Below are positions 28,653 through 30,963 of a stretch of DNA of 64,000 nucleotides, piece by piece; position 1 is the first letter of the stretch; every line of letters starts with the position of its first letter. The position numbers were made by a program, and so were the translations under genes. The notes below the pieces were generated by a model. That model made no database searches, was not told where the DNA came from, and was given only the letters and a program-made list of their open reading frames with translations. The stretch lies in the NCBI GenBank assembly GCA_002721445.1, contig PBKN01000001.1, positions 68,626 to 132,625 of the forward strand, read 5' to 3'. Source of the DNA: Chloroflexota bacterium (lineage in GTDB: Bacteria > Chloroflexota > Dehalococcoidia > Lucifugimonadales > GCA-002723415).

Positions 28653-29786
28653 TTAAGTATTCTGTAGCATGTCATCAATAGATTTAATAAGATTATCTAT
28701 GCCTATATTTTCTTTAACGGAAATCATTTTTGTTATTAAATCTGTTGATTTATTATTTTTTAATTTTAATTCTAATTCTATCTGTTGATTTTTATTAAGT
28801 TTATCAATTTTATTTAATACCATAATTTGATTACTCTTTTTAATATTAATTTTTTCTAATACTTCTTTTACTACATCAGTCTGTTCTGCTGCGTTTTTAT
28901 TAGAGATATCTATTATATGTAGTAATATATCTGCCTCATTAATTTCGTCTAATGTTGCATCAAAAGCATCAATTAGAGTTGTAGGTAATTTATTTATAAA
29001 TCCTACTGTGTCTGTAATTGCTACTTGTTTACCGCTTTTTAAATATAATTTTCTTGTTGTTGGATCTAATGTTGAAAATAATTTGGATTTTTGTATTACA
29101 TTTGCACCAGTTATTAGATTCAATAATGAACTTTTACCTGCATTTGTATATCCTATTAAGGAAATAATTGGTATCCCGGAATTTGATCTTTGTTTCCGTT
29201 GTTGTTTTCTGTTAGTTTTTAATTTGTTAAGATCTTTACGAAGTTTTTGTATTCTTTGCCTTGTAATCCTTCTATCAGTTTCTATTTGTGTTTCTCCTGG
29301 CCCTCTTGTACCAATTCCTCCTCCTAATCTCTCTAAATGTGACCATTGACCTGCAAGTCTGGGTAATAAATATTCATTTTGAGCTAATTCAACTTGTAAT
29401 CTACCTTCTTTACTTTTTGCATTTTGTGCAAATATATCTAATATTAAAGATGTTCTATCTATGATTTTTTTGTTTTTTAATTCGTTTTCTATATTTCTCT
29501 GTTGTGTTGGCGTTAATTCATCATCACAAATTACCGTATTTGCATTTTGGAATTTAGGGTCATTTTTGAGTTCTATTAATTTGCCTTGGCCTAAATATGT
29601 TTGGCTACGTTTCTCTAGGTACTGAATCGCTGATCCTACTATTGTTGCTTGAGCAGTTTTTGCAAGTTCTCCAAGTTCATCTATTGATTCTTTTATGTTC
29701 CAAATAGAATTATCTTTTTTTAATTGAGCTGCAATTAAAAAAACTTTTTCAGTTGCGTTTCTAGTGGATATTAATTTTTTTACGAT
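28653..29786 (-). CDS. hflX: Ribosome-associated GTPase HflX, apparently starting at ATC
   Basis: Reading the minus strand from 29786 gives one uninterrupted 377-residue frame: [16 protein letters not shown], the domain with [45 protein letters not shown] (diagnostic), the P-loop [31 protein letters not shown] and NKIDKL. HflX splits or rescues ribosomes under stress. No ATG, GTG or TTG occurs in frame between the upstream TAA (29798-29796) and a TTG at 29123, which lies inside the P-loop. AAGGA six bases before ATC (29786-29784) suggests ATC is the start. The gene follows dapL by 25 bases. Confidence 0.85.
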
Positions 29787-29811
29787 TAAATTTCCTTATT
29801 TATATAAATAT

Positions 29812-30963
29812 TTAATTTATTAGCTTATTTATACCTTTATCAAGTTGCTCATCTGGAATTGTTAATGATAATCTAATATACCCTTCACCATATTCGCCAT
29901 AGCCTGAACCAGGTGTTACAACAATATCTTTTTCGTCAAGTAATTTTGTTGCATATTCAGCTGAAGTAAATCCATTTGGAATTTTTGCCCATATATATAA
30001 GCTTGCTTTTGGTTTTTCAACATTTAGCCCTATAGAATTTAATGCACCAACTACTTTATCACGTCGTTTTTCATATATACTGTTTCTTTTATCTATGAAT
30101 TCTTGTTTTGTATTTAGTGCTGTAATAGCCATGGATTGAATTGCTTGAGGAATTCCTGAATCTAAGTTTGATTTTACTATCATTAGTGGGTTAATCAACT
30201 TGCTATTTCCTACTACATAACCAACTCTCCACCCTGTCATATTATAACTTTTTGATAATGAATGAAATTCAAGAGAGATATCTTTGGCTCCAGGTGTTTC
30301 CATAAAACTTATTGGTTGGTATCCATCATAAGAAACTTCGGTATAACATGCGTCATGTAAAATTATAATTTCATATTTTTTAGCAAAATCAACTACTCTT
30401 TTAAAATATTCTATATCTGCAATTGCACTTGTAGGGTTATTAGGATAATTTAACCACATTACTTTAGCCTTTTGGGCTATTTCTTTGGGTATTGCATCCA
30501 AGTCAGGAAGCCATTGATTATCTTCGGTTAGAGGCATAGTATAACACTCTCCTCCAGCAAACCAAGTCCCTACAGAATATACAGGGTATCCTGGGTCTGG
30601 GATTAAAGCTATGTCTCCATTATCAATAAAGCAAAATGCTGTATGCCCAATTCCTTCTTTAGCACCTATTAATGGAAGTATTTCAGTCTCTGGATTGAAA
30701 GATAAATTAAATCGATTCTGATACCATTTTTGGATAGCTGTACGAAATTCAGGTAATCCATCTGTTTCCGGATACCTATGATTACTAATATTTAAAGAAG
30801 TTTTCTGAAGTTCGGTAATTACAGTGTTAGGAGTTGGTAAATCAGGGTCGCCAATTCCAAAGTTAATTATTTCAATACCTTGTGATTTTTTCTCAGCAAT
30901 TTTTTTACTTATTTCTACAAAAAGGTATGGAGGTATTTTGTCTAATCTTTTAGCTATTTTCAT
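29812..30963 (-). CDS. dapL: LL-diaminopimelate aminotransferase (DapL)
   Basis: From the preferred start the protein has 383 residues and begins MKIAKRLDKIPPYLFVEISK, then NFGIGDPDLPTP, the PLP-binding SLSKSYNMTGWRVGY with the Schiff-base Lys, and YIRLSLTIPDEQL. DapL makes LL-diaminopimelate directly from tetrahydrodipicolinate and glutamate. The ATG at 30963 has AAGGAG just upstream, so the longer in-frame start at 30987 is rejected. dapF, the next enzyme, lies at 33609-34448 beyond the metallohydrolase gene. General aspartate/alanine aminotransferase activity is the alternative. Confidence 0.85.
   Translation of the reverse strand: MKIAKRLDKIPPYLFVEISKKIAEKKSQGIEIINFGIGDPDLPTPNTVITELQKTSLNISNHRYPETDGLPEFRTAIQKWYQNRFNLSFNPETEILPLIGAKEGIGHTAFCFIDNGDIALIPDPGYPVYSVGTWFAGGECYTMPLTEDNQWLPDLDAIPKEIAQKAKVMWLNYPNNPTSAIADIEYFKRVVDFAKKYEIIILHDACYTEVSYDGYQPISFMETPGAKDISLEFHSLSKSYNMTGWRVGYVVGNSKLINPLMIVKSNLDSGIPQAIQSMAITALNTKQEFIDKRNSIYEKRRDKVVGALNSIGLNVEKPKASLYIWAKIPNGFTSAEYATKLLDEKDIVVTPGSGYGEYGEGYIRLSLTIPDEQLDKGINKLIN

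Follow-up and report, generated by a model that had tools for sequence, protein, structure and literature searches.

Evidence for an ATC start codon in hflX of a Chloroflexota bacterium, of a codon class kept in most families of its order

To our knowledge, few bacterial genes need a start codon that initiation factor IF3 discriminates against, and the cases that we met are infC, pcnB and sigR. IF3 disfavours initiation at codons outside AUG, GUG and UUG, and the AUU start codon of infC places that gene under autocontrol by IF3 (PMC5472188). In Streptomyces, the GTC start of sigR is repressed by IF3, and SigR is overproduced upon mutation of IF3 or replacement of the GTC by a canonical codon; the gene has an extended Shine-Dalgarno sequence (SD), and its non-canonical start is conserved in 34 Streptomyces genomes (PMC5472188). 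HflX splits 70S ribosomes, after which IF3 keeps the subunits apart (PMC9067457). Here we analysed hflX in a stretch of 64,000 nucleotides (the window) from a Chloroflexota bacterium of the order Lucifugimonadales, class Dehalococcoidia, for which a first-pass annotation had proposed a rare ATC start. ATA, ATC or ATT at the start position is referred to as AUH.

The hflX frame (28653-29795, minus strand) opens past a TAA as GGA AAT TTA ATC GTA AAA AAA TTA ATA TCC, with AATTTA as the six-base spacer between the AAGGA and the ATC, and the anti-SD in the 16S RNA of the same genome is intact (GGATCACCTCCTTT). No upstream start is possible in this frame because of the TAA, and no ATG, GTG or TTG is present ahead of the P-loop; the first is a TTG within the G domain, from which a protein of 156 residues would be initiated. 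The 377-residue product matched TIGR03156 with 424.5 bits (cut-off 216.75) over model positions 3-350 of 351 and contained the Pfam domains GTP-bdg_N, GTP-bdg_M and MMR_HSR1 (N-terminal, middle and G domains), with about 220 residues of conserved HflX protein ahead of the first canonical codon. Since the match is full and includes both N-terminal Pfam domains, the segment before the TTG is real protein, and the product is a complete HflX, a predicted ribosome-splitting GTPase. The dapL stop lies 25 bases 5' of the ATC. The annotation had thus read this locus correctly, from the lack of a canonical codon before the P-loop and the SD with its adjoining in-frame stop to the truncated product from 29123. 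We hold with high confidence that the ATC start is real, and it is conserved far outside its own genome; actual initiation at the AUC is very probable.

Table 1. Features of the hflX locus in the window
Feature	Position	Strand	Basis or remark
hflX reading frame beginning at the ATC, 377 aa + stop	28653..29786	minus	TIGR03156, Pfam
ATC start codon of hflX	29784..29786	minus	AUH at the homologous position in 84/112 loci of the order
Shine-Dalgarno AAGGA, six bases 5' of the ATC	29793..29797	minus	duplex with anti-SD, -5.1 kcal/mol
In-frame stop TAA, three codons 5' of the ATC, overlapping the SD	29796..29798	minus	
TTG, first canonical codon of the hflX frame, just past the P-loop	29121..29123	minus	codon 224
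dapL, LL-diaminopimelate aminotransferase, gene upstream of hflX	29812..30963	minus	NF006756, 603 bits

The source genome (1.71 Mb, 18 contigs) comes from a SAR202-type marine bacterium and is the only one of its genus and family among the 197 genomes of the order that were searched; the closest relatives that have a name are SAR202 cluster assemblies, whose HflX is about 50% identical. The 5' end of hflX was read in about 110 genomes, and the HflX proteins compared across the order were about 50-60% identical. At the homologous codon, the 112 loci had ATA in 44, ATC in 24 and ATT in 16, adding up to 84 AUH. The remaining loci usually had a canonical codon at the same place (ATG 14, TTG 7, GTG 2), a total of 23 that is one too high as L005 and L175 are apparently one genome, and that includes two loci, L149 and L180, entered as ATG after manual correction of the scored assignment; five had other codons (ACG 2, GTA 1, GTC 1, TTC 1). 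The assignment scored the SD, the codon and the next residues, so these counts and the SD energies given below are partly circular, which is not the case for the codon-blind test described further on. AUH starts were present in 30 of 35 families, closed genomes included, and only f11, f16, f21 and f28 were purely canonical. The contexts are exemplified by AGGAGGCCTGTC-ATC-GCAAAAAAG (L004), AGGAGGTGGGAT-ATC-GCTAAGCGA (L091), CGGAGTTATTAA-ATC-GTAAGAAAA (L107) and GGGAGCTAGGCC-ATA-CCGAACAGG (L109). After the start, A, P or S was mostly the next residue and K or R the one after it, and about 12 residues lay between the start and a conserved ER motif. In family f5, GTA, TTC or GTC stood behind a strong SD (L133, L139 and L176, respectively), GTC being the codon at which Streptomyces sigR starts. 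The first-pass annotation had named an ATG in relatives as the observation that would speak against an ATC start, and ATG proved to be the exception; the pattern in relatives exceeds what the single-genome observation had shown.

As controls, smpB and der/era (loci L261-L318) and infC (L193-L220) were read in 30 of these genomes. All smpB starts (27/27) and all der/era starts (29/29) were canonical. All infC starts (28/28) were AUH, counting four rows with a one-residue insertion that print a proline codon and have the AUH one codon earlier, and a small residue followed by K or R was usually next, as at hflX. The earlier comparison with infC was apt, since in these very genomes the two genes have their codon class in common and resemble each other in context. 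The median SD energy was -7.5 kcal/mol for AUH hflX, -9.7 for infC, -4.3 for smpB and -3.7 for der; AUH hflX was nearer to infC (p=4e-12 against smpB and der), a comparison that is supportive and not independent, since the SD had contributed to the score by which the hflX start was selected. Compared with hflX and infC of these genomes, smpB and der/era tended towards weaker SD sites.

In the window, all other real-looking gene-sized open reading frames had a canonical codon no more than about 30 codons from the upstream stop. Among 351 open reading frames in 392 kb of other contigs of the same genome, one other gene was without a usable canonical start; this census is a sample of stretches, and genes in which an ATG, GTG or TTG occurs early inside the coding sequence escape the screen. 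That gene encodes a SCO1/SenC-family lipoprotein (L337:9225-9854; contig C9, 49225-49854, plus strand), in which the signal peptide and the first 132 codons are without ATG, GTG and TTG, and it is a candidate for a non-canonical start or has a damaged 5' end. AUH starts are rare in this genome, and that of hflX is a peculiarity of the gene and not a genome-wide trait; general AUH usage was rejected on smpB, der/era, the window and the 392 kb of contigs. Among the gene families tested, the AUH start class was shown to be restricted to hflX and infC.

The most probable role of the AUH start of hflX would be control by IF3. The SD would hold the 30S subunit at hflX while the initiator tRNA pairs with the A and U of the codon and the third base is mismatched. 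IF3 would disfavour such AUC complexes, and HflX synthesis would be slow. More HflX would be made under a shortage of IF3 relative to 30S subunits or under reduced start-codon fidelity, and with infC carrying the same codon class, the levels of IF3 as an anti-association factor and of HflX as a 70S-splitting factor would move in parallel. Shared control of the two genes would be functionally sensible because HflX splits the 70S ribosome and IF3 holds the subunits apart. HflX and IF3 would probably belong to a small set of genes with IF3-discriminated codons, with HflX scarce and coupled to the supply of IF3, and by analogy with infC and Streptomyces sigR it is plausible that hflX is sensitive to initiation fidelity. 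We consider the explanation as a whole, an AUC-started hflX that is held by its SD, disfavoured by IF3 and coupled to infC, to be likely. Taken by itself, repression of hflX by IF3 is somewhat favoured, and co-regulation with infC as a selected function is a tentative suggestion.

The main rival to control by IF3 accepts the start codon as real and takes it as a mere throttle that keeps HflX low, especially relative to the DapL of a shared operon, and lacks IF3 feedback, as was proposed for pcnB of E. coli. The dapL-hflX pair (28653-30963 in the window) was conserved in the greater part of the order, and in the other orders of the class it was present in at least 28 of 40 loci. The median gap in the order between the hflX start and the upstream stop was 25 bases, and a weak start behind dapL would cut HflX relative to DapL. 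In addition, the SD was lost in the canonical-start clade of f28 with f16 (median -1.15 kcal/mol), as if output were kept low by another route. Against a throttle, a weak SD with AUG would be equivalent and seemingly easier to evolve, yet a strong SD was kept together with AUH, as in infC. Moreover, a strong SD was retained at seven canonical loci outside f28 and f16, and expression is therefore not tightly limited everywhere. Outside the class, dapL was mostly not upstream of hflX, and the non-canonical hflX starts found in Chloroflexota classes mostly without an upstream dapL weaken the throttle a little. We regard a plain throttle as a serious possibility that is nonetheless less probable than IF3 control. 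The hflX genes of f28 have ATG or TTG with little or no SD (L136, L156, L163, L167-L169, L171, L173, L177, L178, L180 and L181), and f28, f11, f16 and f21 do well on canonical starts. The idea that AUH is generally replaced by AUG behind a weak SD was rejected: this combination was seen in f28 and L005, but the seven other canonical loci had a strong SD.

The conservation of AUH is by itself no proof of a start because all three codons read isoleucine, and the residue could be internal to a longer HflX, made from an upstream start or by readthrough or frameshifting from dapL. Some of the replacements (Val, Leu, Phe and Met) are conservative, the GTA, GTC and TTC of family f5 would also fit an internal residue, and 14 AUH loci had an in-frame canonical codon further upstream. 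However, 22 AUH loci from 17 families, the window included, had an in-frame stop at most four codons upstream, which in L107 and L121 immediately adjoins the ATC, and 47 non-canonical loci from 24 families had no ATG, GTG or TTG between the upstream stop and the ER motif. In the codon-blind test, the best match to AAGGAGGTG was located 5' of the conserved region and the trinucleotides 4-9 bases beyond it were counted. AUH was found in 56/192 in frame and 8/384 out of frame in the order (p=1.6e-21), and in 22/76 in frame and 4/152 out of frame in the other orders of the class (p=1.5e-8); these p-values count related genomes as independent and are optimistic, and the effect was spread over many families. 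Close stops, the lack of a canonical codon and an AUH enrichment solely in frame, behind a strong SD at initiation distance, together argue for a start codon and not an internal isoleucine, and nothing alike was seen in these genomes at smpB and der. In the window, a longer HflX is refuted by the TAA unless stops are read through. We consider an internal isoleucine very unlikely.

Initiation at another nearby non-canonical codon, such as the ATA at 29771-29769, is slightly less likely still: AUA, too, may act as a start codon, and this one precedes the ER motif, but it lies 21 bases away from the SD at a position that is not conserved, whereas the ATC is preceded at six bases by an SD and followed by the conserved small residue and K/R. 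A sequencing or assembly error hiding an ATG, or an hflX that is dead at its 5' end, is the least credible reading even though the genomes are mostly metagenome assemblies, because independent assemblies agree on the codon class in 30 families, single-contig genomes have ATT (G003) or ATC (G005 and G032), and the N-terminal part of HflX is conserved as protein; error and local mutation were ruled out by the relatives.

In the other orders of the class, hflX had mostly AUH, with ATG in some. In other Chloroflexota classes, the SD-anchored in-frame codon was often ACG (8/60 trinucleotides), and AUH and ACG together made up 13/60 in frame and 3/120 out of frame (p=5e-5). Examples are AGGAGGCGCTT-ACG-AGTAAA (L349) and GGAGGTAACT-ACG-GCAAAA (L356); hflX genes that seemingly start at ACG after a strong SD were observed at L345, L349, L356, L358, L360, L368, L370 and L007. 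Anaerolineae hflX had ATG at about the same distance from the ER motif, and in other phyla 67 of 69 hflX loci had a canonical codon in the right region. In a tree of 59 HflX proteins, built with the start columns excluded, the canonical label needed 8 scattered changes, at least 5 of them on well-supported branches, with Anaerolineae as canonical outgroup. The pattern is compatible with a single early change to AUH in the class that was later reversed repeatedly, although the tree leaves the changes unoriented. A wider proposal is that hflX avoids AUG, GUG and UUG across Chloroflexota (using AUH, often ACG, and rarely GUC, GUA or UUC) and forms a two-gene regulon with infC in which the ratio of IF3 to 30S sets both supplies; this we regard as rather unlikely. 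No earlier report of unusual hflX or Dehalococcoidia start codons was found among the open-licence titles and abstracts listed, and in the literature within reach an AUH-type hflX start is apparently unreported so far.

If the reading with IF3 is true, hflX would be a second translation factor gene with the device of infC, class-wide, and initiation fidelity would be a control signal for ribosome rescue. Gene finders that accept only ATG, GTG and TTG should truncate or misstart HflX throughout the group. The N-terminal domain of HflX acts in ribosome splitting, and the false 156-residue product would be without it.

Among the known systems, infC (AUU, AUC or AUA in E. coli and other bacteria) is like hflX in combining AUH with a strong SD that is conserved across families. 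They differ in that infC is repressed by its own product, an autocontrol that was demonstrated in E. coli, whereas hflX encodes a different factor and its control would be in trans. The sigR gene also has a non-canonical start, belongs to a stress response, lies in an operon and is misannotated by gene finders (PMC5472188). Unlike hflX, it uses GTC or GTT in one genus and encodes a sigma factor, and its repression by IF3 is demonstrated. The pcnB gene of E. coli shares an inefficient AUU start that limits expression (Binns and Masters 2002, as cited in PMC1780047), but its product is no translation factor. Finally, lepA of Borrelia burgdorferi and Bacillus licheniformis, like hflX, encodes a ribosomal GTPase that is full length only if started at AUU; in contrast to hflX, these are predictions from single genomes, with conservation not shown there (PMC1780047).
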